The notes beneath the pieces were generated by a model. The model was not told the DNA's origin, did not search any database, and saw only the letters and a program-made list of their open reading frames with translations. Made by a program: the position numbers and the translations under genes. A stretch of 34,336 bases of DNA. It comes from an uncultured Bacteroidales bacterium. GTDB lineage: Bacteria; Bacteroidota; Bacteroidia; Bacteroidales; Paludibacteraceae. Positions 15,193-30,749 of this stretch are shown one piece after another; the first letter of the stretch is position 1, and each line of letters begins with the position of its first letter. The stretch lies in the NCBI GenBank assembly GCA_946059305.1, contig CAMGMU010000016.1:1-34336 (forward strand), written 5' to 3'.

Positions 15193-15716
15193 ACCCTCTG
15201 CCTTGGCAGACCGCAGTTGCCACTTGTTTCCATCACCGCCACGGCGTGCGCCATCTGGACATCGGTGGAATCCATTGCCTCCGTCCATGTCATACTTGTA
15301 GAGATAACCTCACTCCTTTGGTGACTCGTGCCCGTGGCACTCCCGGAACATGGAGCTCCGTCCTCATGCTTTGGCTGCTTGGCCGTCATCCTTAACGGCT
15401 GTACCTATAGCCGTTCTCTTATCTTGCCGCTTTCTATCCCTATACTTGCTCGGGCTCCTAATCTTGGGAGTCCGGGCTTGCTTCGCGTAGAGTAGGGCTC
15501 GCCTCTCCCCTCCTCTTCCTGTCGAACGCAGGCGCAGCAGCTGTTACTACCGCTCGTTCTGCGTACTTCTGCCGTCGGTACTGAAGCAGTTGTTTCTATT
15601 CTCGGTCTTGCTCTGGTTGTTTCCTGATTCAGCCATAGCAACTCGCTATAGTCATTCGTTACTTTTGTGGCATGTTCTTTTGGTTATACACATTGTTCCT
15701 GAGATTTTGATGTTCC

Positions 15717-15880
15717 TTTTAGCAATGCAAAGTTAGTTGGTTTACGCTGTATGGCAAGGCTATACAAGTGGCTGGCAAAAATCTTCCTTCCGGACGTGCC
15801 GGAAGAGTATTGTTTGCCGCCATCCTTGCTTTTGACATCGTCGGTCACCCCGCTGCGCTAACTGATAAAGCATTGTAAAA
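15717..15880 (+). promoter_or_regulatory. Structured leader/repeat element, copy A, upstream of ardA
   Basis: TTTTAgCAATGC..AGTTAG (left) can pair with CTAACT..GCATTGTAAAA (right); internal CTTCCGG-ACGTG-CCGGAAG hairpin; near-identical arms in copy B. Confidence 0.75.
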
Positions 15881-15925
15881 GAAACAAATCTCAAACAAAT
15901 GTATAATTCCAAAAACATCAGAAGT

Positions 15926-16492
15926 ATGAAAACAATGTATCGCGAACCGCTTACGGCTGAGGAAATCAACCTCCACAAGAACAATTACGAGAACAAAACC
16001 CCTGCCGTGTATATCGGTACCTATGGCAAGTACAACGAGGGCAGTTTATTTGGCTGCTGGGTAGATATAACTACCTTCGATAGCTACGAGGAACTCTTGG
16101 AGTTTGGCGAGCGCCTCCACGCTGATGAAGCAGATCCCGAACTCATGTTCCAGGATTACGAGTGTTTCCCACGCGAGTATTACGGGGAAAGCCACTTGGA
16201 TTTCGAGGAAATCAAGGCTTGGTATAATCTCGATTCGGATGAGCAAGAGGCCTTCGAAGCCTACATCGAGTATGAGGGCAAGTCTGCTTCCATCGAGAAG
16301 TTCCAAGAGGCCTATTCCGGTCACTTCGATACACCGGAGGAGTTTGCCGAGGCTCTCTACTACAATACCGGTATGATGGAAGGAGTACCCGAGTGGGTCA
16401 TGGGGTCCATCGATTGGTCGTCCATCTGGCGCAATCTCCGCTGTGCCGGTGATTATTGGGAGAACAAGGGCTACTATTTCGCTTCCTGCTAA
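15926..16492 (+). CDS. ardA: ArdA-like antirestriction protein
   Basis: PAVYIGTYGKYNEGSLFGCWVDI..., FGERLHADEADPELMFQDYECFPREYYGE; strongly acidic. Confidence 0.9.
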   Translation: MKTMYREPLTAEEINLHKNNYENKTPAVYIGTYGKYNEGSLFGCWVDITTFDSYEELLEFGERLHADEADPELMFQDYECFPREYYGESHLDFEEIKAWYNLDSDEQEAFEAYIEYEGKSASIEKFQEAYSGHFDTPEEFAEALYYNTGMMEGVPEWVMGSIDWSSIWRNLRCAGDYWENKGYYFASC

Positions 16493-17005: not shown

Positions 17006-17554
17006 ATGACGGACCATTTACTCTATCTGTCTCTGCCGCCGTACCTTGCTCAATGGTATGCTGACGAGTGCAGGCGAAACGAACAAGCTCGAAGCGACAC
17101 GTACGCTCCAGAGCCCTATCGTTTCCCTCAACCGATTCAGCCCATTCGAGGCTCTCTCGAATCCGGCATTTTGGAGTTGTTCTTAACCAAGCAGCCAGCT
17201 GCTGTTCCACAAGATTTCAAAGAAGGCGCGAATATCGTATTGGCGATTCCTTCGTTCCGAAATCGTGACCCACGTATCTATAACTACTTGCGGCCCTCAG
17301 CGCGCGAAATGCTCCAAGCCGCTATACATACTCGTTTTCAAGTGAAACTGTTTCAAGATATCCATCAATTGGTGGGTCTTGGTAAGGCTCGCAAAGATCT
17401 TACAATCATCGCTTGGATGGAGCAGCACGGTATTGAAGTGGACGATACCAACTACAATTCCGTCCTGAAGGTTTTCGATCGCGTACGGAATACGTATACA
17501 CAGTCCGAGAACCGCAAAATCAAGAAAGAGCGAAAAAAAGTTCAAAAACCGTAA
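17006..17554 (+). CDS. Hypothetical protein, first gene of the capsid unit
   Basis: 182-aa ORF directly downstream of a promoter. Confidence 0.65.
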   Translation: MTDHLLYLSLPPYLAQWYADECRRNEQARSDTYAPEPYRFPQPIQPIRGSLESGILELFLTKQPAAVPQDFKEGANIVLAIPSFRNRDPRIYNYLRPSAREMLQAAIHTRFQVKLFQDIHQLVGLGKARKDLTIIAWMEQHGIEVDDTNYNSVLKVFDRVRNTYTQSENRKIKKERKKVQKP

Positions 17555-17613
17555 CGAACTCAAACGCCTTTTGTCTTTTTAGTCACATCTGTCATTCACC
17601 TATATACGTCACT

Positions 17614-18033
17614 ATGAATACACACTTCTCTCTCCCGGGCATCAAGTCGATAGCAGTCGCTTCTGCAAATGTCCTTCCTTCGGAACTGGCAATGCAGTCT
17701 CTTGCCGGTCTGCCCATATCAGCTCCGTCAACGGCTGAGGACATCCCCTTTCATGGTGAAGCCACATGCGAGTGTACGCAAACGTATGCGCCCGCACTCT
17801 CTGAAACGGTAGAACTCACGTTTTCATCGCTCATAGAGCTTCCTTCGGATACGCACATGGCTATCCTCGTTACTGATGCCAACCGCATCCCATATCTGAT
17901 TGGTACAAAAGAGGAGCATCCTGCCATCGAGCGTCGTCAGACGTTTGGTAACCCTGAGTCGGACTCCAATATTTATACATATACTATACGTATGTCCGCA
18001 CCACGTGCGCTCATACGATGTGTGATAAGGTAA
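17614..18033 (+). CDS. Hypothetical protein
   Basis: 139-aa ORF, same strand and spacing as the surrounding phage genes. Confidence 0.6.
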   Translation: MNTHFSLPGIKSIAVASANVLPSELAMQSLAGLPISAPSTAEDIPFHGEATCECTQTYAPALSETVELTFSSLIELPSDTHMAILVTDANRIPYLIGTKEEHPAIERRQTFGNPESDSNIYTYTIRMSAPRALIRCVIR

Positions 18034-18279
18034 AAGTAGTTAACCTAAACCTAATACTTGAAAAAATCTTTGATACTTCGATTGGCCGGTTCTTGCTCGG
18101 GAGAGTAGGGCCGGTTTGTTGTGAAAAAATGGTCTTTTCGCGCACGCGAAATAAGCAATAATTTTGTGGCAAATTTAAATCTTTGCTATGAACTATCGTG
18201 CCAACGAACGCAGACCAAGCTTGCTTGTGTATGCCGAGTGCAGCCGATAGTCTATAGGCAAAAAACCTTATTATTGACT

Positions 18280-19398
18280 ATGAAAAATTACCATCTTCAC
18301 TTGCGCGGAGTTGTCGGAGGATATGACTTCGACAGCCGCCATGTGCAGAATGTCCTCACTGCCAACAAGAATAAGCAGGTGGACGTTCTTATCGACTCGC
18401 TCGGTGGCTCAGTGGCTACCGCTCTCACTATTGCTTCTGCTTTCCGCGATCATGGCGATGTGCATGTGCATTTCGTGGGCATGAACGCGTCAGCGGCCAC
18501 CATCGCTTCCATGGGTGCCAAGCGCATCACCATGGATAGTTCTGCCATGTACCTCGTACACAAATGCTCCTCGGAGTTCTTCCAATGGGCATCGCTCAAT
18601 GCCGACCAGCTGGAGCAGCAGATCGCTGATCTTACGCAGTTGAAAACCGACTTGGAGAAGATTGATGCCAACGTAGCCACCATGTATGCTAAACGTTGTG
18701 GCAAGGAACGCGACGCGCTCCTTCAACTGATGAAGGTTGGTGGTTGGCTGAACGCTACCGAGGCCAAAGACTGGGGCTTTGTTGATGAAATAACGGATGA
18801 AGCCGAAGACGCAGCGCCTGTGCTCACTGACAGTATTGCATCGGCTATGGCTGCTGTAGGTATGCCCATCCCGAATCTTCCTATTCAGTCGAGTTCGCAG
18901 TTCCAAAAGTTCCTTGCGGCTATGATAGAGTTCTTCCGTGGGGGCAAAGAAGCGCAAGCTAATCCACCCAAACAAACCATAACTATGAAGAAATTTCCAT
19001 TCCTTGCTGCGGTCTTGCTGATGGCAGACGCGCAGATTGCTCTCATAGAGGGCAAGTTCTCCCTGGATGAACAGCAGCTAGGCACGCTCGAAGATGCCCT
19101 CAAGGAGGCCAGCGAGAATGCCGAAGCACTCAAGGCTGCTCAAACCCGTGTTTCGGAGTTGGAGTCCCAACTCTTAGAAGCTAACACCAAAGCCGCCGAA
19201 GCAGCAACCCTGCGCCAGTCGGTAGAGGCTAAGAACCTCGAAATCCAGCAGCTCCAGGCTAAAGCGGAGGAGCTCGGTAAGCAGCCGGGTGACACTACAC
19301 AACAGGTGCATAACAATGCCGGTGAAGGGGTTGAGTCGCCGATGGATGACTTCTTCCAGCGGCTTCAGGCTGCCAAGGCTCTCTACGACATGGTCTGA
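18280..19398 (+). CDS. ClpP-like prohead protease with C-terminal scaffold-like coiled coil
   Basis: VDVLIDSLGGSVATALTIASAF, GMNASAATIASMGAKRITM, SSAMYLVHKCSS; then a long coiled coil; directly precedes the capsid gene. ATG 18280 preferred over 18121. Confidence 0.85.
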   Translation: MKNYHLHLRGVVGGYDFDSRHVQNVLTANKNKQVDVLIDSLGGSVATALTIASAFRDHGDVHVHFVGMNASAATIASMGAKRITMDSSAMYLVHKCSSEFFQWASLNADQLEQQIADLTQLKTDLEKIDANVATMYAKRCGKERDALLQLMKVGGWLNATEAKDWGFVDEITDEAEDAAPVLTDSIASAMAAVGMPIPNLPIQSSSQFQKFLAAMIEFFRGGKEAQANPPKQTITMKKFPFLAAVLLMADAQIALIEGKFSLDEQQLGTLEDALKEASENAEALKAAQTRVSELESQLLEANTKAAEAATLRQSVEAKNLEIQQLQAKAEELGKQPGDTTQQVHNNAGEGVESPMDDFFQRLQAAKALYDMV

Positions 19399-19443
19399 CC
19401 ATGTAACCATTAACATTAAACGCTAATCCTAAACTTATTCATT

Positions 19444-20412
19444 ATGGCAGGAAAACTTCAATTTACTCTGGATGATTTTCAGAAAGCCGCTCATCAGTTC
19501 CGCAAGGAACTCTTGATGCTGCCGATTATCGGCATTAACGACACGCTTCAATTTATGACTCCGCGTCCCGGTATCCGCTACAAGGAATCAGTAGGTGATA
19601 TGTCCGGTGCAGCACAGTTTGCACCCTACAAGCCGAGCCGAAGCGATGACTTCTACCTTAACCTCAACTTCCGCACGCTCGAAACCTTCTTTGGTAACGT
19701 GCATGCCAAGTTTGAACCTAACTCGGCTATCTCTACGCTCCTTGGTACGATCGCGGCACAAGCCAAGGGCGATGGTCAACTCACCGCTCCCACCGCCAAG
19801 CATGTGCTCTCGCTCATTGCCAAGTCATCGTCGGAGAATCTCAACAACGCCATTTGGAAGGGTAAACGTAACCCGAATGGCAACACGTCCATGGACCTCT
19901 TCGATGGCTTCGACACCATCACCGAGAAGGAGATTACCGAGGGCAATATCTCTTTGGAAAAGGGTAACTACCTCAAACTTACTGAGGCCGTCACCTCTGA
20001 AAATGCCTATGATCTGGCTAAGCAAATCCTCTATTCGCTCGACCCTCGTCTGCGTGCTCAGGATTGCTACCTGTTCTGCTCGCAGGACTTCGCCGACAAG
20101 TACAACGATGCCTACCAGCTTACGCACTCGGGCTACGTGTACAACTCGCAGTTCGATCAGGTGGCTGTAGAGGGGTCTAACAACCGTCTTCACATCATTC
20201 CGCTCTTCAACAAGGCAGATTCCAAGTTCATTCACGTCTGCCCCAAGTCGAACATGCTCGTTGGCTACGACCAGATGTCTGACACCGAGTCCGTTATGGT
20301 CAAGGAGTACGAACCGTTCATCCTCTCTTACATCGCTACGATGTTCTTCGGTGTGCAGTTTGAGTCTATCGACAAGCGTCGCTTCAAGGCCATCGAGCTT
20401 GTAGTTGAGTAA
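19444..20412 (+). CDS. Major capsid protein (putative HK97-fold)
   Basis: 322 aa, follows the protease/scaffold gene, MAGKLQFTLDDFQKAAHQFRKELLMLPIIG... and C-terminal FILSYIATMFFGVQFESIDKRRFKAIEL. Confidence 0.7.
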   Translation: MAGKLQFTLDDFQKAAHQFRKELLMLPIIGINDTLQFMTPRPGIRYKESVGDMSGAAQFAPYKPSRSDDFYLNLNFRTLETFFGNVHAKFEPNSAISTLLGTIAAQAKGDGQLTAPTAKHVLSLIAKSSSENLNNAIWKGKRNPNGNTSMDLFDGFDTITEKEITEGNISLEKGNYLKLTEAVTSENAYDLAKQILYSLDPRLRAQDCYLFCSQDFADKYNDAYQLTHSGYVYNSQFDQVAVEGSNNRLHIIPLFNKADSKFIHVCPKSNMLVGYDQMSDTESVMVKEYEPFILSYIATMFFGVQFESIDKRRFKAIELVVE

Positions 20413-20481
20413 CGCAATGATTGAGCGGTTAAACACCGCTCAACAGTATTAAATCTTTAAACCATTAAAACCTATTAAATT

Positions 20482-21234
20482 ATGCCTAATTGTTCTTCTT
20501 TACAGAAATCACTCGCGTGGTGCCAAGGCACTCCCGAGTTCCCCGGCATCAAGCGCCGTTTGTATTACATCTCAAAGGCGAGTATCGCCAAGTGGCCGAC
20601 GCTTCCCACCGATGCTGCTGGCCGTCCTACTGGGGCCGTCTATCAAGGTTCGTTTGTGCTGGTTGCCGATGCTAATTGGAAGTACATCGACATTCTCTCG
20701 GAAAAGTCGCAGCTTACTTCTGAAGCACAGGGTGAAGTACCATCGCAGACGCAGCTCAACAAGCTCACCGCTGTGCATCCGGCAGTAGGCCCTGATGCAA
20801 CTGCCGCATCGGCTTACCTTAACAACTCTGACAACGTCTTCATCATTGAGGATATGAAGGGTAAGTATCGTGTCGTTGGTTCGGATATGTGGAACACCAA
20901 AACCACCGTTAGCCAGGACCTTGGCCAAGGTGCTACAGGAACCACCTCCACTACCATCAATGTGGAAGCAACCGACGTTGTTCCAGCTCCCTTCTATGAA
21001 GGTGAAATCGTTACCGAAGATGGTACTATTGAAGCATCCGGTTCTCAGTCGGGTTCAACCAACACCGGTAGTGGCTCAACGAATACTGGCGGCAGCGGAA
21101 GTGGCTCTACCAATACTGGTAGTGGATCGTCTAACACTGGCGGCAGCGGAAGTGGCTCTACCATTACTGGTAGTGGATCGTCTAACACTGGCGGCAGCGG
21201 AAGTGTTCCAGATGACTTTCCGGGCTATGATTAA
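20482..21234 (+). CDS. Capsid-adjacent structural protein with Ser/Gly/Thr/Asn repeat tail
   Basis: Follows MCP; C-terminal repeats GGSGSGSTNTGSGSSNT. Confidence 0.6.
   Translation: MPNCSSLQKSLAWCQGTPEFPGIKRRLYYISKASIAKWPTLPTDAAGRPTGAVYQGSFVLVADANWKYIDILSEKSQLTSEAQGEVPSQTQLNKLTAVHPAVGPDATAASAYLNNSDNVFIIEDMKGKYRVVGSDMWNTKTTVSQDLGQGATGTTSTTINVEATDVVPAPFYEGEIVTEDGTIEASGSQSGSTNTGSGSTNTGGSGSGSTNTGSGSSNTGGSGSGSTITGSGSSNTGGSGSVPDDFPGYD
21088..21206 (+). repeat. 51-bp coding tandem repeat (17 aa)
   Basis: Copies start at 21088 and 21139 with a partial third from 21190 (GGSGSGSTNTGSGSSNT / GGSGSGSTITGSGSSNT / GGSGS). Confidence 0.85.
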
Positions 21235-21292
21235 TCCGTGTCTGAACTTCACCAATAGCTGCGGAATGGATTATTATTAATGTTCTTTACGA

Positions 21293-21928
21293 ATGGCACT
21301 ATTCGATTTATCTGAAGTTGGAATTGGCGAGGCAAACAGCTCCGCCAGTTCCTCTTTGTCTTCATCGCCTGCTCCCGTCAAAGACCTCTTTGCCGAAGAG
21401 TCTCGCAAGGGGTGGCATAAGCCCGATACGATGGAGGCCCGATGTGACCTTTCAATTGAGCGGCTGACTATGTCACCCCATGCTTCTGTGCCAGTTGTTT
21501 CCATTTGGAAAAAGTCCATCAAAGGACGTAAACTTACGGACATCAAAGCCGACGACTCGATGGTTGTCTATTTTGCTGACCATCTTACGCCCGTTATCCA
21601 GCGTGTGCTCGGTAACTACCTTAGAGAAGGGCATTGGGCTATCTGTGCCACCCCAAAGCGAAGGCATCTCACCCAAAACTTTGCATGCCGAATAGCTGCT
21701 GAGATAGGCCGCCGGCTGCAAATCCCCTACTACGAAGATGTGGCTATTGCTCACTCTCGTCAGCGTGTAGCGGTGGATTTCGATCTTGGCATCTTGCCCA
21801 AAGAGCCGAACCTCATCATCTTTGATGATTTTGTTACAACCGGCTCCACCATTGCCGCCATGAAAAGATTGCTCGACCCATTGGGCAAGAACCTCTTTTT
21901 TGTTGTCGGCATCAATAACAACATGTAA
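21293..21928 (+). CDS. Phosphoribosyltransferase-fold (ComF-like) protein
   Basis: NLIIFDDFVTTGSTIAAMKRL matches the PRPP-binding DDxxTTGST loop; CATPKRRHLTQNFACRIAAEIGRRL. Confidence 0.75.
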   Translation: MALFDLSEVGIGEANSSASSSLSSSPAPVKDLFAEESRKGWHKPDTMEARCDLSIERLTMSPHASVPVVSIWKKSIKGRKLTDIKADDSMVVYFADHLTPVIQRVLGNYLREGHWAICATPKRRHLTQNFACRIAAEIGRRLQIPYYEDVAIAHSRQRVAVDFDLGILPKEPNLIIFDDFVTTGSTIAAMKRLLDPLGKNLFFVVGINNNM

Positions 21929-21947
21929 TTTCTAAACTCTCTATACT

Positions 21948-22748
21948 ATGGATCACGAACTTACTAAAAAAATGCGCGCATGGCTCGAAACTCCTGAAGA
22001 GCAGCGCGACCTCGAAGAGGGCGCACTCTTCGTCCTCCAACTCTCCAATAACCGCATTATGTATCAGGGCTTTATGCGAAATCTCAAGCGTTCTGCCAAG
22101 ATGATTGCCTACCAACTGCAGAAGTATTACAACTTCCGTGTGAAGGACCTCACGCATCAGGAAGTGGCTGAGATGACTGCTCAGGTCAAGAAGATTGCAG
22201 AAAAGGATAATCTTCAGGCCATTCCAACCTCGTCTGAAAACGAATCCAAGGCAGCCGGAGATAATCCATCCCCGGAACTGGTGGCAGCGATTCGCAAAGG
22301 AAGGCGCGTTGACCACGATGCCTTGCCGGAGGATATTCAGGCACTCTATATTGAGAACCTCCATATCATCCAGCGTATGCGTAATCTCCATGCCAAATTG
22401 GAATTGCTGTCGGTGGAACATGCCACCTGTCCTGACTCTGAGCGCTATCCATTCTTGAAAGAGCTAATCGCGCTCGATAAGCAGTACCACGAGAATTGGA
22501 ACACCTATGACCACTACGTGCTCTCCGGTGCACCTGCTCCCGTGGAGGTGAAGATCGATGAGGAAGCAGCCTCTTTGCCGGAGCAAGTTTCTGAGACTGT
22601 GCCTGGTGAGACTTGCCCAGCTTCCGAGCCCGCTGATTCTGAGAAAGCGCCTGCAACTTCCGCGCCCGAGCCTGCTCCTGCTCCGGCAGAACCGAAGAAG
22701 AAAGGCAAGCGCCAATCCTCCACCTCTAAATCCACTAAAAAGGCATGA
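21948..22748 (+). CDS. Hypothetical protein with low-complexity Pro/Ala/Glu and Lys-rich tail
   Basis: 266-aa ORF in the operon; tail ASEPADSEKAPATSAPEPAPAPAEPKKKGKRQSSTSKSTKKA. Confidence 0.65.
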   Translation: MDHELTKKMRAWLETPEEQRDLEEGALFVLQLSNNRIMYQGFMRNLKRSAKMIAYQLQKYYNFRVKDLTHQEVAEMTAQVKKIAEKDNLQAIPTSSENESKAAGDNPSPELVAAIRKGRRVDHDALPEDIQALYIENLHIIQRMRNLHAKLELLSVEHATCPDSERYPFLKELIALDKQYHENWNTYDHYVLSGAPAPVEVKIDEEAASLPEQVSETVPGETCPASEPADSEKAPATSAPEPAPAPAEPKKKGKRQSSTSKSTKKA

Positions 22749-22823
22749 ATGGAATAGCCGCCCGATGTATGCTTGCATTGGCAACTCGGTGCAGCATTTC
22801 ATTCATAAATTACGTAGTAACGT

Positions 22824-23342
22824 ATGAAAAGAGGTGTAGGCATTGACGACCTTCTCAAGCCGCTGTCCAGCCACCCCACGCAGTGCTATCTCACGAATGT
22901 GCTGCAGGTGGCTGACGTGCTTGAGTGGGTATTGAAGCAGGTCGGCAAATCAACGGTTTGGCAGACATCCTTCTCTATCTCCGAGGAGTTCCTCCGTCGC
23001 CTTTACTTTATCGAAAAAAGTGGTCGTGTGAATACCATCCACCTTATACTCGATTTCAAGGCCACGCAGAAAACGCTCAAACTTTGGCCCTTTCTCACCA
23101 AGGTTATTGAGCATACCTACCTTGCGGACAATCATTCCAAAGTGATACTCATCCAATCCGACGCGGGTGATAAGGTCTCCATTATCACCTCACAGAACCT
23201 CACCCGAGGTAACCGTATGGAGGGTGCAGTGGTTTCAACCGATTCGCATGTGTTTGATACCTTCCATGCCTCGCTCGAGGATATTATCATTAATCACTCC
23301 GTGCCGCTCTCGGAGTTGTTCAAACAGAAGATTGCACAATGA
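22824..23342 (+). CDS. Phospholipase D-like superfamily protein
   Basis: NHSKVILIQSDAGDKVSIITSQNLTRGNRMEGAVVSTD resembles HxK....D...GSxN.T...E, with imperfect catalytic positions. Confidence 0.65.
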   Translation: MKRGVGIDDLLKPLSSHPTQCYLTNVLQVADVLEWVLKQVGKSTVWQTSFSISEEFLRRLYFIEKSGRVNTIHLILDFKATQKTLKLWPFLTKVIEHTYLADNHSKVILIQSDAGDKVSIITSQNLTRGNRMEGAVVSTDSHVFDTFHASLEDIIINHSVPLSELFKQKIAQ

Positions 23343-23584
23343 AGTCAGCCGCTCTACCTTACATTCATATTTCTACCGCCAAGCATCTGCTCGCGCAGCC
23401 TGACCCTGTTTCACTTGTCGTCTGGAAGCGCGATGGTTCGCTCGTTACCTACGAGAATGTTATCTCAATCTCTTATGATTTCTACAAGGGTACTCGGCAT
23501 ATCAAGTTCTTGCGTTCGGGCGAAATTCGCTTGGTGCGTGATGTGTGCATCTATAAGCTTAACGGTATGCAGGTGATTCTGTAG
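23339..23584 (+). CDS. Small hypothetical protein
   Basis: 81-aa ORF overlapping the previous stop by ATGA. Confidence 0.6.
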   Translation: MKSAALPYIHISTAKHLLAQPDPVSLVVWKRDGSLVTYENVISISYDFYKGTRHIKFLRSGEIRLVRDVCIYKLNGMQVIL

Positions 23585-23636
23585 TATCGTTGCTTTTTTT
23601 ATTAACTTTCATATTTTTCGAATCGTTTTACTTATA

Positions 23637-23666
23637 GCCGGATTATGATGTAGTCCGGCGTTTTTT
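23637..23666 (+). terminator. Rho-independent terminator
   Basis: GCCGGA-(11 nt)-TCCGGC followed by GTTTTTT. Confidence 0.85.
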
Positions 23667-23674
23667 GTCGTTCT

Positions 23675-23852
23675 TTTTAGCAATGCAAAGTTAGTTGGTT
23701 CTCTCCGTATGGCAAGGCCAAGGCGAGTTCCGTACCGCAAGCTAAGAAATCTTCCTTTTTCCTGTTGAGCCGGAAAAGCGTATTTCTTCCGGAAGTCTTG
23801 CTGTTCACGTCGTGGGTCACCCCGCTTCGCTAACTGATATAGCATTGTAAAA
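23675..23852 (+). promoter_or_regulatory. Structured leader/repeat element, copy B
   Basis: TTTTAgCAATGCAAAGTTAGTTGGTT...ATGGCAAGGC...GTCACCCCGCTtCGCTAACTGATATAGCATTGTAAAA, shared with copy A; the variable middle has its own pairing (AGAAAT/ATTTCT, TTTTCC/GGAAAA). Confidence 0.75.
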
Positions 23853-23912
23853 ATAACAAAAACACCGAAACATCATTCATCCTATAAGTTTAACATTCAA
23901 AATTTTACAGTT

Positions 23913-24248
23913 ATGAAAAAGCAAAATTCTAACGTACAGAACACCGCAGTTGAAACCGCAAAGCAGAGCGCACGTAAGCAGCTCAAGAGTCTCTCGAACA
24001 GCCTCATGGAACTCGCTAAGGCCGAAGGTCGTACGGATGTATCCATCAATGAGCTTTTGAGAGAAGCATATCAGCTCGTAGGTAAGCAGCTTAAAACCTT
24101 CGAAGCTTGGCAGGCCGAAGGCGCCAACATCCGCAGAGGTCAGCGCGCCTACCTCTTCTGGGGCGCACCTGTAGAAACAGAAGCCGGTTATCGCTACTGT
24201 CCAGTGAAATATCTCTTCTCACAAGAGCAAGTTCACGTAGCTCACTAA
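23913..24248 (+). CDS. ArdC N-terminal-like (ssDNA-binding) small protein, tentative
   Basis: TFEAWQAEGANIRRGQRAYLFWGAPV...CPVKYLFSQEQV resembles the ArdC N-terminal 'TF.qa...Gg.VrkGekg..v.fw' pattern; 111 aa, no protease domain. Confidence 0.5.
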   Translation: MKKQNSNVQNTAVETAKQSARKQLKSLSNSLMELAKAEGRTDVSINELLREAYQLVGKQLKTFEAWQAEGANIRRGQRAYLFWGAPVETEAGYRYCPVKYLFSQEQVHVAH

Positions 24249-24257
24249 TGTTTAATT

Positions 24258-24283
24258 GCCCCCGAGCCGTAAAGCAAGGGGGC
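24258..24283 (+). other. Intercistronic hairpin without U-tract
   Basis: GCCCCC-(14 nt)-GGGGGC just after the ArdC-like stop; same relative position as 16494-16515. Confidence 0.6.
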
Positions 24284-24299
24284 TTCAAATCTCCACATT

Positions 24300-24530
24300 A
24301 TGATAACGATTGAATCCATCTTACAGAACTGCACCGATGAGGAGCTCGATAAATTGTTTTCTGCATCGTGCACCATCACGGAAACCCTTCTTCTCAACGC
24401 GGATATGGATAGTACCCAATTGATGATTGAAAGCCGCGCGTATTTTTATGCTAACCTTGTTCAGATAAGCGCTTTTGATGAAATTCGCAATCGCGCGAAA
24501 GGCCTGAAAGAGCATAAGTATAACCATTAA
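24300..24530 (+). CDS. Small hypothetical protein, paralog of 16548-16784
   Basis: MITIESILQNCTDEELDKLFSASCTITETLLLNADMDSTQLMIE. Confidence 0.7.
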   Translation: MITIESILQNCTDEELDKLFSASCTITETLLLNADMDSTQLMIESRAYFYANLVQISAFDEIRNRAKGLKEHKYNH

Positions 24531-24543
24531 CACTTCACTAATT

Positions 24544-24714
24544 ATGGCTAAAGAAATTCGTTATTACCTGTGTAACCGTCATAGAGAAGTCCTCTACCAA
24601 TACGGCTGTTTCACCAGTCTCGAAGCGGCTGAAATCAAGTTCCGCACCATCCTTTACAACACTTCTGGCGATTGTCCTGTCTGTGGCATCAGAGCTTTTG
24701 AGGAAGAAGTGTAA
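24544..24714 (+). CDS. Small Cys-containing protein, possible zinc ribbon (56 aa; not in ORF track)
   Basis: MAKEIRYYLCNRHREVLYQYGCFTSLEAAEIKFRTILYNTSGDCPVCGIRAFEEEV. Confidence 0.6.
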   Translation: MAKEIRYYLCNRHREVLYQYGCFTSLEAAEIKFRTILYNTSGDCPVCGIRAFEEEV

Positions 24715-24723
24715 AGTACAACA

Positions 24724-24765
24724 AGCGCTCATCCCAATAGGGTGGGCGCTTCTGCTGTCTTTTCG
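24724..24765 (+). terminator. Terminator-like hairpin closing cassette B
   Basis: AGCGCTCATCCC-AATA-GGGTGGGCGCT followed by a T-rich but not continuous tract. Confidence 0.6.
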
Positions 24766-24782
24766 TGTGCGTGTGCGTAGCA

Positions 24783-24790
24783 GTAACTTT
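24783..24790 (+). promoter_or_regulatory. -7 box of a Bacteroidetes-type promoter upstream of the portal gene
   Basis: TAACTTTG; -33 not clear. Confidence 0.5.
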
Positions 24791-24813
24791 GCAGCATAAT
24801 CAGTAAAGTCGCT

Positions 24814-26133
24814 ATGCAAACCTATTTTACTCCCTCCGTTGAAACCATCCCTGGCGTTAATGCCAAGGTGGTTTTTACACCAGATACCACAACGCTCTTT
24901 AAGGAGTCTATTGATATTCCGAATCTTGTTATCAACGACAAGACATCCATCGTACCTTGGGGCGCAGACAACCTCATGCCTTACGACATCCTGAATAAGA
25001 TAGAGGCCGACGAAACGCTCACCACCTGCCAGACCTTCAATGCTGAAGTCTGTTATGGTGGTGGCATCAACTATTGTACGAGAGATGCAAGTAAGCAGAC
25101 GAAGCAGGAAGTGGAGGACTTCCTTTTTGAGAATAATATGGCAGATTACTACCTCGGTGCTTGCCTCGACTTCAAGCACTTTGGTTTTTGTGTATCACTT
25201 CTGATTCTCTCAAAGGATGGTACGCGCATCACGAATATTATCCGCAAAGAGGCTGCCAATTGTCGCTTCACGCCCGCTGACGGGCATGGCGTTTCCAAAG
25301 AGGTGCTCTTTGCTAATTGGGAATCTACGGATTTAAGTCAGATAGAGCATATGCCCTTGCTCTCCCTCATCAATCCGTGGCGCGATCTGCAATCACGAAT
25401 GCAGAACGGCGATAAGCATCGAAAGTTTGCTGTGGTTTCACGCATCCCTACAGCGCGCAACACGTATTATCCTATCCCTTATTACGCTTCGATTTTCAGG
25501 TCTCGCTGGTACGATATCAAGCAGCTGATTACAACGGCCAAGAAAGCCAAGCTCGAGAACTCGGCTCCCATTAAATATCAGATTGAGATTTCCGCTCGCT
25601 ATTGGGAGAAACTGTTTATCTCTAAGGGTATCACGTCCATTGAGGATAAACGCGTTGCTGTCAATGAATCCAAGCAGCAGATGATTGATTTCCTTACCCG
25701 CGCAGAGAACTCGGGCAAGGTGCTCTTTTCGGAGTTCTACCAAACGCCCGATGGCAAGGAGCAGCAGGAAGTTCGCATCACCACCATTGCCACCGGCAAA
25801 GAGGGTGGGGACTGGGAAACGGACATCCAAGAGGCTATCAACATCATGTGCTTCACCCTGCGCGTTCACTCTAATCTCGTAGGCTCCGTTCCGGGAAAAG
25901 CACAAACCAACAACTCCGGTTCTGACAAGCGCGAGCTGTACACCATCGCGCAGGCCCTACAGAAGCCATACCATGATATTCTTTTCATGCCGCATCGGAT
26001 AATTATCCGCTACAACGGATGGGATGGAGTGCATGTAGATTGTCCATTCATTCAGCTCACCACGCTCGACGAGCATCGTGATGCCAAACTTGTAACCACA
26101 AACCAAGACAACAATGATACTGATAACCAATGA
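24814..26133 (+). CDS. Phage portal protein
   Basis: 439 aa; VPWGADNLMPYDILNKIEADETLTTCQTFNAEVCYGGGI...; position in the packaging module. Confidence 0.75.
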   Translation: MQTYFTPSVETIPGVNAKVVFTPDTTTLFKESIDIPNLVINDKTSIVPWGADNLMPYDILNKIEADETLTTCQTFNAEVCYGGGINYCTRDASKQTKQEVEDFLFENNMADYYLGACLDFKHFGFCVSLLILSKDGTRITNIIRKEAANCRFTPADGHGVSKEVLFANWESTDLSQIEHMPLLSLINPWRDLQSRMQNGDKHRKFAVVSRIPTARNTYYPIPYYASIFRSRWYDIKQLITTAKKAKLENSAPIKYQIEISARYWEKLFISKGITSIEDKRVAVNESKQQMIDFLTRAENSGKVLFSEFYQTPDGKEQQEVRITTIATGKEGGDWETDIQEAINIMCFTLRVHSNLVGSVPGKAQTNNSGSDKRELYTIAQALQKPYHDILFMPHRIIIRYNGWDGVHVDCPFIQLTTLDEHRDAKLVTTNQDNNDTDNQ

Positions 26134-26953
26134 TGCGCAGCTGCGTTCGTATGTACCCAATGCGCTGGTCACCGTGACGGGTGAGATGTCTCTCTTCGAT
26201 AAGATGCGTACTGATTTGGCGCTTTCCGAGCAGTGGCTTACCATCCATTTTGTGGATGCTTCTCTTTTAGGAAAGATTGCCTTGGAGAAAGAACATAATG
26301 AAGCCGCAAACATATGCTGTCGTGCCGTCGTGGCCGACGCACTCCTTCGGGCTATTCCCTCGCTAGACCTCGTTCTTACCCCCAACGGCTTCGGTATCGT
26401 GTCCAACCAAAATGTCGCACCTGCATCCAAGGATCGTGTGGACCGTCTCCTTTCGAACCTTGAACTCGTTCGCGACCGCTCTCTGCAGCAGCTGCTCTAT
26501 CTGCTCCCCAAGGCGGCCACCTCGGAATGGCTTCAGTCGGAGGCGGGGAAGTATTTCGCTGCAACGCTCTTCCCATACCTCGACCTGCCATCGCTCCTTG
26601 GTTATACCGATAAACTGTGGGAACGGTATCAGCAGTATTGGGCACAACTGAAACTTATCGAAGCTGAACTCGCTGATAAGTTTATCTCTTCAGAGGTCTA
26701 TGCCCGATTGCGTCAACGCTTCATCGAGGACTCGTGCGACATCGTTGAACTCGACCTCGTGAATCGCCTGCGTGCCATCGAACTCGCTCTCCTCAAGGGG
26801 AAGCCGCTCGATATGCAGGCCCTTCATGCCATCGTAACCTATATCCGTAAGAATCCAGCGGATTTTCCAGAGTGGGTAGCTTCTGAAACTGCCACTCATT
26901 TTTCGGATCAATCGTTTCACAATTCTAAACAGTCCGGCGGTTACTGGTTTTAG
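26114..26953 (+). CDS. Phage structural protein (possibly DUF6712-like head-completion)
   Basis: 279 aa, overlaps portal end; composition resembles Bacteroidetes phage head-completion proteins (tentative). Confidence 0.55.
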   Translation: MILITNDAQLRSYVPNALVTVTGEMSLFDKMRTDLALSEQWLTIHFVDASLLGKIALEKEHNEAANICCRAVVADALLRAIPSLDLVLTPNGFGIVSNQNVAPASKDRVDRLLSNLELVRDRSLQQLLYLLPKAATSEWLQSEAGKYFAATLFPYLDLPSLLGYTDKLWERYQQYWAQLKLIEAELADKFISSEVYARLRQRFIEDSCDIVELDLVNRLRAIELALLKGKPLDMQALHAIVTYIRKNPADFPEWVASETATHFSDQSFHNSKQSGGYWF

Positions 26954-26959
26954 CCGCCA

Positions 26960-27682
26960 ATGATTATGAACTTAAATCTAACCGTGCCTACCTGTTGGCA
27001 GGAACTCAATCAAAAACAACTTCGTTATGTGTACTACTTGCTCGCAGAGGGCTACTCCAAAGAAGCCCTTCAAACGCATTGCCTCTGCCGGTGGTCCGGC
27101 CTCGAAATTCTTTGTCCGGAAGGAGATGGCTACAGCGTACGCCACAACTTCGCTCGCCATCATGTAACGGCTCTTCAAGTGGCAGAAGTATTATCGCACG
27201 TTGACTGGCTACTGCAACTTCCTTTTGTGCCGGTACGTCTCTCTGAGATTCAGGGCCACGCAGCTGCACGAGCCGACCTACAGGGCGTCAGCTTTGAGCA
27301 GTACCTCATCCTCGAAAACCTCTTCCAGGGCTATCTCGTCACCAAGAACCTTTCCTTGTTTGATGATACTACGGAAATCCTCTATGGTACGCAGCTCAAA
27401 CTGCTTCCGGAGGAGCAAGTGAGTGTCTTCTATTGGCTCTCATCTGTAAAACAAGTGTTTGCCCGCCGATGGAATCACTTCTTCAAACCCACGGGTGGGG
27501 AGCAGCATATGAATATGGAAGCTCATCTGCAGAACCTGATGGACACTCAGATTCGTGCGCTAACCAAAGGCGATATCACCAAGGAACCTGAGGTGCTCTC
27601 GATGGATGTGCATCGGGCGTTGACGGAACTTAATGCCCAAGCTAAAGATTACGAAGAACTCAAAAAATCTGCCAAATCATGA
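26960..27682 (+). CDS. Hypothetical phage protein
   Basis: 240-aa ORF in a tightly packed operon. Confidence 0.65.
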   Translation: MIMNLNLTVPTCWQELNQKQLRYVYYLLAEGYSKEALQTHCLCRWSGLEILCPEGDGYSVRHNFARHHVTALQVAEVLSHVDWLLQLPFVPVRLSEIQGHAAARADLQGVSFEQYLILENLFQGYLVTKNLSLFDDTTEILYGTQLKLLPEEQVSVFYWLSSVKQVFARRWNHFFKPTGGEQHMNMEAHLQNLMDTQIRALTKGDITKEPEVLSMDVHRALTELNAQAKDYEELKKSAKS

Positions 27683-28167
27683 ACTGGAACGCAACCGCTT
27701 TTTTCGAGAAACTGACGGAAACCAACCGCTTGGCACAGCAGGAGCATTTCCGCTTCTGCAGTGTCAGCGGATTGCAGGGGTTTGAGGAAGCGTTGGCCGC
27801 CATGGGCAGCACTACTGCATTTGTATGCGTAGCAGATAACTCTGATGGTTATACTGACATCAACAACTCGCCTCATACGCGTCGTATTAAAACCGTGTTC
27901 ATGGCAATGCGCCATGCACTCGATAGCCAAGATGCACGATTAGAGTGCATCTATACGATGCGGGAACTGTTTCGGCAGTTTATGTCGGTGCTTATTCTTG
28001 AGAAGACCAAGCTGCAGGAGGATAATATCTACCTCGACCCGCGAGTCCGTTTTACTGAGATACCTCAGTATTTTGCATCAGGATGCGCTTGCGCATACTT
28101 TCAGATAGCTGTTGATATTTATACCGATCTTCGTCTTAATCCGTCAGAGTGGTCATCCGCAAAATAA
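27679..28167 (+). CDS. Hypothetical phage protein
   Basis: 162-aa ORF, ATGA overlap with previous gene. Confidence 0.65.
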   Translation: MNWNATAFFEKLTETNRLAQQEHFRFCSVSGLQGFEEALAAMGSTTAFVCVADNSDGYTDINNSPHTRRIKTVFMAMRHALDSQDARLECIYTMRELFRQFMSVLILEKTKLQEDNIYLDPRVRFTEIPQYFASGCACAYFQIAVDIYTDLRLNPSEWSSAK

Positions 28168-28174
28168 TGTAACT

Positions 28175-28450
28175 ATGAATTATACCGTCGAACAACTCAA
28201 TATGATTGAGCAATATGCATCCATCTATCTCCCAATATCGGATATAGCCGTGATTTTGGAAATCACTCCGGAGCAACTCCGTGAGGATATCCATGACAGC
28301 CAAAATCCAGCCTCTTTCCACTACCGCAAAGGCAAGGCTCTCTCCAAGGTGCAGCTCCACCAGCAAGAGATGACGCTTGCCAAGGTGGGCTCACCGCTTG
28401 CTTTGCAGAATGCTCGCGATAACCTGCTCGCCATGGAGGATGATGAATAA
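28175..28450 (+). CDS. Small HTH-like protein, possible packaging accessory
   Basis: MNYTVEQLNMIEQYASIYLPISDIAVILEITPEQLREDI resembles an HTH. Confidence 0.55.
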   Translation: MNYTVEQLNMIEQYASIYLPISDIAVILEITPEQLREDIHDSQNPASFHYRKGKALSKVQLHQQEMTLAKVGSPLALQNARDNLLAMEDDE

Positions 28451-28470
28451 CATTAAACCAAACCTTAACT

Positions 28471-29103
28471 ATGCCATTACCTGCAATTATTACAGTTGCC
28501 ACAGCTGACCTCTTTACCGATGAGGCCACGCTTCGTAAGAAGTACCAAGAGGTGCAAGTTACGCACATCCTGCGGCTTCGTGATATGTACAATTGGTATC
28601 TCTCCAACCCTGATGCGCATGACCGCCAGTTTGTGGATCAATGCCGTTCGCGTTATTCTCTTGGTAAGTCGCAAGCCTACGAAGACCTTGCGCTTATCAA
28701 GAAGCTTCTTCCTGCACTGTCGCAGTCTTCCCGAGATTTCCATCGCTGGAAAGCCAACGAGATGCTGCTGGAAACCTACCGTATGGCCAAAGCTCGTAAA
28801 GATACCAAAACCATGGAGAAAGCAGCTTCGGCTTATGCCAAGTACAATCGTGTGGATATTGAAGATGAGCAGGTGATGCCTTACGATGATATCGTTATCC
28901 AGCCGTTCCGTGCTACCATGGATCCTACTGTTCTTAACCTGAAGCCTATTCCGAACATAGACGATAAGATTGCAGCTATGATTGCACGTTATTCCAAGGA
29001 ATCCATGGATATAGAAGATGTAGAATATGAAGAAGCCGACCTCGACGAACAGGAGCTTTTCGCCGAGCCGGACAGCACTCCTGATGAACCCTTTATTGTC
29101 TGA
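28471..29103 (+). CDS. Terminase small subunit-like
   Basis: FVDQCRSRYSLGKSQAYEDLALIKKLLP helix-turn-helix-like region; directly upstream of TerL; acidic tail. Confidence 0.6.
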   Translation: MPLPAIITVATADLFTDEATLRKKYQEVQVTHILRLRDMYNWYLSNPDAHDRQFVDQCRSRYSLGKSQAYEDLALIKKLLPALSQSSRDFHRWKANEMLLETYRMAKARKDTKTMEKAASAYAKYNRVDIEDEQVMPYDDIVIQPFRATMDPTVLNLKPIPNIDDKIAAMIARYSKESMDIEDVEYEEADLDEQELFAEPDSTPDEPFIV

Positions 29104-29105
29104 CT

Positions 29106-30749
29106 ATGCAAAAAGAAATTTACTTCAATAAACCGCAGTTGCGCACGCAACTTATTGGCGCAAACACTACAGTCATAGTAGCTGGCCGCCGTACAGGAAA
29201 GACGGATTCTATCGCATCGCCTTTCGTTTTCCGGAATATGCAACGGATGGCTGGTTCAACCGGTGGTATAGTCGTGCCTACCTTCAAGCATGGTCTTACT
29301 AATACTATTCCTGGTTTACTCTCAGCGTGGCGCCGATGGGGGCTTCTCCCCGGTGTGCATTATGTGGTCGGACGGAAACCGCCCAAGTCCTTTAAGTCTG
29401 CTATTATCGAGCCTACCGATTATGAGCACGTGATATCGTTTTATAATGGTTCACGAGCCATCATCATTTCGCAAGACCGTCCGGGTTCTTCCAACTCACT
29501 CACGCTGAGCTGGCTACTCATCGATGAGGCAAAATTTATCGATTTCGAGAAATTGAAGGATGAAACCCTTCCGGCTAATGGTGGTATCAAATCGTACTTC
29601 GGCAAGCACTCTTTCAACCACTCAATAATGATACTCTCCGACATGCCGCAAACCAAGAAAGGCTCATGGTTCTTGCATTATAAGGAGAAAATGGATGCGG
29701 AGCTTATCCGCACCATTGAGGCTACTGTTTATGAAATATGGAAAATCAAGGAGCGCATACGCTCTGACAAAGCGGCAGGCCTCAAGAGTCCGGATTATCT
29801 ACGCTCTCGGCTACGTAAACTCGACCGCCAGCTCAATCAGATGCGCTCAGTAGCTGTCTATTATCAAGAATATAGTTCTATTGAAAACCTGCAACTTCTT
29901 GGGGAAAACTACATTAAGCAGATGAAGCGCGATTTAACGCCTCTTACGTTTCAGACTTCTATCCTCTGCAAGAAGATTGGTATTGCCAAGGATGGCTTCT
30001 ATTCTTCGATGAGGGAATCGCACAAATATGATGCTTCCAACTTTGAGTATTTGGATAAAGTGTGGCAGAATATCGAGCAGTCGCACGTTGCTCCAACAAC
30101 TGCTTTCACCTCGGATGCTGACCGAGATGTCAATCCCGATGCACCTATCTGTATCGGCATGGACTATAATGCCAACATCAACTGGATTGTTGCCGGTCAA
30201 ATTTCAGGAAGAAGGCTTAATGTCATCAAGTCCTTCTACGTAAAATTTGAGCGCAAGATTCCGGAATTGATTGCTGATTTCTGCCACTACTATAAAGGGC
30301 AAAGAAACAAAACAGTCATATTTTATTACGATGCTACGGCACTTGGTTCGAACTACGCTGTGAACACCCAAGACTTCCATTGGGTGATCAAAACACAGTT
30401 CGAGCAGCAGGGATGGCGCGTGATAGACGTCTATCTCGGCCAACCGATGCGTCATGATGAGAAGTACCTGCTCATCAATAACGCTTTCAAGGGCCTGCAA
30501 AACCTCATGCCTTTCTTCAATCGTCAGAACAACGATGACCTGATTCTCGCCATCCAAACGGCAGGTGTCAGCCGAGGCCGACTCGGCTTCCGAAAGAATA
30601 AGTCCGGCGAGAAACTTGCCGAAACCGAGGAGGATCTGCTTCAGCATCGTACCGATGGCACCGACGCATTTGATACCCTCTACATCGGCTGTGAGAAATT
30701 TCCTCAGGAGGTCAGTTCTACCGATATTTTTGTTTCTGGAGTGGGATAA
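29106..30749 (+). CDS. Terminase large subunit
   Basis: VIVAGRRTGKTDS (Walker A), LTLSWLLIDEAKFID (Walker B), CIGMDYNANINWIVAGQ (nuclease Asp). Confidence 0.9.
   Translation: MQKEIYFNKPQLRTQLIGANTTVIVAGRRTGKTDSIASPFVFRNMQRMAGSTGGIVVPTFKHGLTNTIPGLLSAWRRWGLLPGVHYVVGRKPPKSFKSAIIEPTDYEHVISFYNGSRAIIISQDRPGSSNSLTLSWLLIDEAKFIDFEKLKDETLPANGGIKSYFGKHSFNHSIMILSDMPQTKKGSWFLHYKEKMDAELIRTIEATVYEIWKIKERIRSDKAAGLKSPDYLRSRLRKLDRQLNQMRSVAVYYQEYSSIENLQLLGENYIKQMKRDLTPLTFQTSILCKKIGIAKDGFYSSMRESHKYDASNFEYLDKVWQNIEQSHVAPTTAFTSDADRDVNPDAPICIGMDYNANINWIVAGQISGRRLNVIKSFYVKFERKIPELIADFCHYYKGQRNKTVIFYYDATALGSNYAVNTQDFHWVIKTQFEQQGWRVIDVYLGQPMRHDEKYLLINNAFKGLQNLMPFFNRQNNDDLILAIQTAGVSRGRLGFRKNKSGEKLAETEEDLLQHRTDGTDAFDTLYIGCEKFPQEVSSTDIFVSGVG

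Follow-up and report, generated by a model that had tools for sequence, protein, structure and literature searches.

A candidate fold-back promoter upstream of ardA and other genes in predicted tailed prophages of a Bacteroidales genus

Overview

A hairpin element of about 175 nucleotides precedes ardA and a variety of other genes in what appear to be temperate prophages of a Bacteroidales genus. We lean, with somewhat better than even confidence, toward a model where the minus strand of this element folds back on itself to assemble a promoter, and thus works like the Frpo promoters of conjugative plasmids. Comparison among copies supports this model well. Its starting point is a 34,336-nucleotide stretch of DNA from an uncultured Bacteroidales bacterium (this whole stretch is called the window below), which carries two copies of the element, A and B.

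Architecture of the two copies

Each copy is an imperfect hairpin wherein two conserved arms of ~56-64 nucleotides flank a variable middle. The features of both copies and their surroundings are as follows.

15712-15885, minus strand: copy A of the hairpin element, minus strand folded as DNA (fold z -4.6, with 0 of 200 shuffles as good; covariance model 139 bits at 15709-15888)
15712-15728, plus strand: left basal arm of copy A, GTTCCTTTTAGCAATGC, which pairs downstream of the start site (covariation)
15728-15735, minus strand: -7 box of copy A, TAACTTTG (motif scan)
15755-15757, minus strand: -33 box of copy A, TTG, 19 nucleotides from the -7 box (motif scan)
15824-15829, plus strand: CCTTGC of copy A, partner in the -33 helix, pairing with GCAAGG at 15754-15759 (arm pairing)
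15864-15869, plus strand: GATAAA of copy A, unpaired and facing the -7 box (predicted fold)
15870-15885, plus strand: right basal arm of copy A, GCATTGTAAAAGAAAC (covariation)
15899-16492, plus strand: ardA, the first ORF past the base of copy A (Pfam ArdA, E = 2.3e-21)
17006-30749, plus strand: phage head and packaging genes, including a Clp-type protease (18121), a capsid-like protein (19444), a portal-like protein (24814), DUF6712 (26114) and the terminase large subunit (29106)
23670-23857, minus strand: copy B of the hairpin element (a weaker minus-strand DNA fold, z -2.6, with 1 of 200 shuffles as good; covariance model 164.5 bits at 23667-23860)
23670-23686, plus strand: left basal arm of copy B (covariation)
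23686-23693, minus strand: -7 box of copy B, TAACTTTG (motif scan)
23713-23715, minus strand: -33 box of copy B, TTG (motif scan)
23797-23801, plus strand: CTTGC of copy B, partner in the -33 helix (arm pairing)
23842-23857, plus strand: right basal arm of copy B (covariation)
23913-24248, plus strand: 111-amino-acid ORF, the first past copy B; a related protein matches the ArdC N-domain below threshold (homology)

The original prediction placed TTG, a 19-nucleotide spacer and TAACTTTG on the minus strand of both copies, and both promoters lie exactly where it put them. The internal loop that it described as AA opposite GATAWA is likewise present, at 15729-15730 versus 15864-15869 and at 23687-23688 versus 23836-23841. 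The apical stem-loop of copy A (15787-15805) resembles an intrinsic terminator on both strands.

The promoter motif

The window has two perfect matches to TTG-N19-TANNTTTG (TTG-n19-TAnnTTTG), one in copy A and one in copy B, and no others. This count is statistically weak by itself (2 versus 0.53 expected, with at least 2 in 12 of 100 shuffles), and so the weight rests on 41 distinct homologous copies. All 41 keep 8-9 of the nine specified promoter bases on the minus strand, compared to 6.8 in shuffles, and the promoter score of the plus strand, including 200 nucleotides upstream of the element, is at the level of shuffles. In a background sample of 1.12 Mb of same-genus DNA, the 120 nucleotides that precede ORFs contain 95 occurrences of the motif in the sense orientation versus 15 in antisense. 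Thus, the genus uses as its native promoter what had been called a good match to the -33/-7 promoters of Bacteroidetes.

Conserved pairing among divergent copies

Divergent copies retain CCTTG or CCTTT, a spacer of 18-21 nucleotides and TAnnTTTG (rarely TAACTTCG) on the minus-strand arm. The letters of the stems vary but their pairing is kept, as in CAATGC/GCATTG, CGGTGC/GCACCG, CACTGC/GCAGTG, CGGTAC/GTACCG and CATTGC/GCAATG. Covariation is evident in two helices, the basal one beneath the start site and another that encloses the -33 box. Among 22 distinct rows of the alignment, three of which were added by hand, these helices have 92.7% of cells paired; letter shuffles give 84.2%, and sliding the helices gives 22-43%. 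The same rows contain 33 double-change cells versus 8.9 in shuffles, and neither observed value was reached in any of 500 shuffles. The partner of the -33 box was picked by complementarity, so the -33 helix is favored by construction; the basal helix alone has 98.5% of its cells paired. A partner of 5-8 nucleotides for the -33 box is present in 35 of 36 distinct copies, where the sole exception is copy B with a mis-set window, whose own partner is GCAAG. Because copies within a genus are kin, these statistics overstate the independence of the rows.

The bases opposite the -7 box are kept non-complementary, mostly as TTT facing TTT. When the whole stretch from -33 to -8 is compared with the other arm, the pairing (0.49) exceeds that of shuffled insides (0.42) only modestly, and this stretch is paired at 0.12 in the predicted fold of copy B. 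Full pairing of the promoter spacer is therefore weakly supported, and what is conserved is a pair of helices with an open loop, not a complete duplex. In a comparison of 25 representatives, which are partly interdependent, folding is stronger for the minus strand than for the plus strand to a degree that composition does not account for (Wilcoxon p = 0.0016).

A scan by structure alone, which required the native promoter, a basal stem and a -33 helix in same-genus DNA, returned 42 distinct sites versus five in a reversed control, with ordinary promoters among the matches. One site (L150) is a second, sequence-unrelated hairpin that the covariance model had missed. Its -33 helix has 8 bp (CCAAGGTG/CACCTTGG), its -7 loop is open, and the next gene to its right is ardA. 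Hence, the proposed geometry, with a -33 box that is helical and a -7 box in an unpaired loop that is conserved, recurs both in many divergent copies and in an element recovered without reference to their sequence.

Orientation and associated genes

In all 45 distinct leader contexts, including three IMG/VR contigs, the promoter points away from the gene. An ORF starts soon past the right base of the hairpin, commonly within 5-50 nucleotides, and ardA and ArdC-like genes are among these ORFs, although copies precede different genes. The label 'ArdC-like' applied earlier to the gene beyond copy B is weak, because a close homolog matches ArdcN at E = 0.009, which is under the family cut-off. Judged by position only, the element would drive anti-defense genes, since ardA lies directly after copy A and after elements in other carriers. 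Similarity among flanks is higher on the right (0.47) than on the left (0.37). The minus-strand promoter signal, the fixed side of the gene, the likeness of the right flanks and the better fold of the minus strand together indicate that the promoter is kept where the gene would be readable by fold-back alone.

Distribution

The covariance model identifies the element in 44 of 178 same-genus genomes. About 85 copies were recovered in total; a genome has at most five, and carriers frequently have two or three. Near-identical arms turned up in more than 20 same-genus genomes when 300 genomes of the taxonomic family were scanned with a pattern, and the element also occurs on IMG/VR viral contigs. 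A covariance model scan of 295 genomes across the order yielded no match in the 294 besides the source genome. That genome has a third, divergent copy on a 2.8-kb contig (G000:C97:1188-1389; L103), where it precedes an ORF of 69 amino acids.

Searches elsewhere were negative. There was no match to the element among Rfam covariance models, and blastn against 72,556 plasmids gave a single chance match of 34 nucleotides and no homology to Frpo of F or ColIb-P9. A phage nucleotide search produced chance matches only, and an exact-pattern search returned only unrelated sequence in genome contigs and no hairpin in viral contigs.

Two copies are aberrant. A 55-nucleotide version near a contig end (L020/L074; G215:C11:51741-51811) has both basal arms without the -33 part and the middle, which might reflect a deletion or an assembly collapse. 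In another (L142 2207-2398; G227:C4), unrelated sequence takes the place of the left basal arm immediately after the -7 box, and this might be a breakpoint or a chimera.

The carrier elements

A typical carrier neighborhood includes a divergent regulator, a DnaG-type or DUF5906 primase, the element, small ORFs (one of which is ArdC-N-like), cargo and ardA. Beyond ardA are genes for a protease, capsid, portal, terminase and tape measure, and a tyrosine integrase is located at the far end. The terminase and primase match those of Porphyromonas gingivalis, Microcystis and faecal phages of the same gene order; a search for a related viral primase found none. Judging from the integrase, terminase and tape measure genes, the carriers are predicted to be temperate tailed prophages.

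A conjugative carrier, such as an integrative conjugative element, was considered and rejected. Among 12 carrier genomes, relaxase PF03432 (the sole relaxase family searched) was detected in three and coupling protein PF02534 in two, but never on carrier contigs, which encode tailed-phage genes instead. Conjugative entry, which the original prediction had offered as the route to single-stranded DNA, is therefore not a likely source of single strands. By its own terms, that prediction would be refuted by homologs in elements that never pass through a single-stranded state. As far as conjugation is concerned, such homologs are what we find, and the idea of a hairpin promoter is itself unaffected.

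Several carriers have additional features. One, the carrier of genome G118, encodes an RNA polymerase alpha C-terminal-like domain (L172:4112-4603; PF03118, E = 4.7e-18) between its regulators and head genes, and this protein might be a phage transcription factor. The same carrier (L172:10465-11826) has head genes, a tape measure and an integrase with no recognized portal or terminase between them, and so it could be a satellite or a decayed phage. At five loci (L073, L075, L076, L078 and L139), the cargo between the element and the head genes includes an LRR protein, a peptidyl-arginine deiminase-like protein, a 3211-amino-acid repeat-like protein, alpha-amylase, RtcB, UmuC, Fic and a Schlafen-type helicase. 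The window also contains three 51-nucleotide tandem repeats (21052-21204) in a stretch of ORF 20482-21234 that is rich in Gly, Ser, Asn and Thr.

Proposed mechanism

In duplex DNA, the promoter would face away from the gene. With no forward promoter near the gene, expression of the ard genes in a lysogen would be absent or would depend on read-through. Once freed from its complement, the minus strand would fold with the non-template promoter boxes on its 3' arm and the template on its 5' arm, such that the -33 box is in a helix and the -7 box in a pre-opened loop. RNA polymerase would then exit via the basal stem, continue through an A-rich leader and enter ardA or the ArdC-like gene. The promoter, the fold, the covariation, the conserved open loop and the fixed side of the gene are shown by the comparisons above. 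We infer that polymerase uses the folded strand, that exposure of the minus strand occurs early during infection and that the purpose of the arrangement is to provide anti-restriction proteins on entry.

Exposure might occur by gyrase-driven extrusion as in phage N4, or through single-stranded DNA that arises from replication or end resection. Extrusion of the N4 type would best fit the carrier and would not require conjugation. The resemblance of the carriers to double-stranded DNA tailed phages, with no known single-stranded stage, counts against the fold-back model.

Alternative explanations

The element could instead be a structured 5' leader, in which the plus-strand sequence folds within mRNA that reads through from the upstream primase operon and thereby regulates translation or termination of the ard genes. 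This possibility is unlikely in our estimation, but it survives best among the alternatives, given that the element is oriented with the upstream operon, has a strong predicted plus-strand RNA fold and carries the terminator-like apical stem-loop in copy A. However, a leader would leave unexplained why a promoter on the opposite strand is conserved at fixed spacing. The better fold of the minus strand, the lack of an Rfam match and the diversity of downstream genes also disfavor a leader.

The fixed orientation of the promoter bears on a second and rather improbable scheme, that of an invertible promoter caught in the OFF state, whose inversion would aim it at ardA. Such promoters are common in Bacteroidota (PMC10994844), capsule loci being an example, and the layout is suitable in that an outward promoter sits between inverted repeats, its -7 box is just inside a repeat and the gene follows immediately after the far repeat. 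No flipped copy is found among the 45 leader contexts, which counts against inversion, and the covarying -33 helix and inner pairings would be superfluous for it. The only recombinase recognized near carriers, among them one complete carrier, is the far-end integrase, and this result covers enzymes that the carrier itself encodes.

We give equally little credence to a plain duplex promoter that fires leftward to produce an antisense or interfering transcript, thereby keeping the ard genes off in the prophage, with repeats that are incidental or bind a repressor. The motif is indeed a working promoter of the genus and would fire leftward in duplex DNA. Yet conservation is lower in the left flank than in the right one, upstream genes point toward the element in mapped carriers, and the covarying stems and conserved open loop would have no explanation.

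Even less probable is a single-strand initiation site, in which the hairpin primes complementary- or lagging-strand synthesis and RNA extending into ardA is secondary. The element does lie just downstream of a primase gene in many carriers, and Frpo also primes DNA synthesis, according to the title of Masai and Arai 1997, cited in PMC11541004. Gene control fits better than a single replication site because carriers have several copies, each before a different gene start. An integron attC site was considered and set aside, as the boxes are in the wrong order.

Comparison to known systems

One precedent for the fold-back promoter model is Frpo, whose single-stranded DNA stem-loop restores the two promoter boxes so that early genes are expressed; ColIb-P9 has a homologous arrangement, and its early leading genes include ardA (PMC9849209, PMC11541004). 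Like Frpo1 and Frpo2 (ssi) of F and ColIb-P9, the element is a one-strand stem-loop that would rebuild two boxes, is present in duplicate a few kb apart and precedes anti-defense genes including ardA (PMC9849209, PMC11541004, PMC8708921). However, the boxes are of the Bacteroidota -33/-7 type rather than -35/-10, and the -7 box is mismatched rather than paired. Two further Frpo features were absent when tested: the element does not lie in a conjugative leading region with the transferred strand as template, given that PF03432 and PF02534 were not detected on its tailed-prophage carrier contigs, and there is no sequence similarity to plasmids.

Phage N4 is a double-stranded DNA tailed phage whose early hairpin promoters, used on entry, are extruded by gyrase supercoiling and stabilized by SSB (PMC4496689). 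Like these, the element would be a hairpin promoter in a tailed double-stranded DNA phage. In N4, the hairpin is short, lies around -11 and is read by a virion RNA polymerase of the phage's own, whereas the element has host-type boxes and a hairpin of ~175 nucleotides; the protein families matched in one complete carrier include no virion RNA polymerase.

The element also resembles Bacteroidota invertible promoters in having an outward promoter between inverted repeats, but differs from them in its single orientation in 45 contexts and its extra covarying -33 helix. Carriers share the order of regulator, primase, protease, capsid, terminase, tape measure and integrase with Porphyromonas gingivalis prophages and Microcystis phage Mea-Yong924-1. 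Unlike the carriers, four records of their Porphyromonas, Microcystis and faecal phage relatives gave no significant match to the hairpin model.

Implications

Conjugative plasmids are known to use single-strand promoters, which allow incoming DNA to get ahead of host defenses. At slightly less than even confidence, we suggest that the hairpins represent a family of fold-back promoters for host RNA polymerase in temperate tailed phages of Bacteroidota, independent of Frpo and N4, which would keep anti-restriction genes off in the duplex prophage and turn them on when a strand is exposed by entry, replication or attack. If so, tailed phages would time anti-defense genes by the strand state of their DNA and not by repressors alone, using a design that combines the boxes of the local sigma factor with a conserved open -7 loop. 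This raises the question of when phage DNA is single-stranded enough to be read, and whether damage to incoming DNA switches on the antidote.
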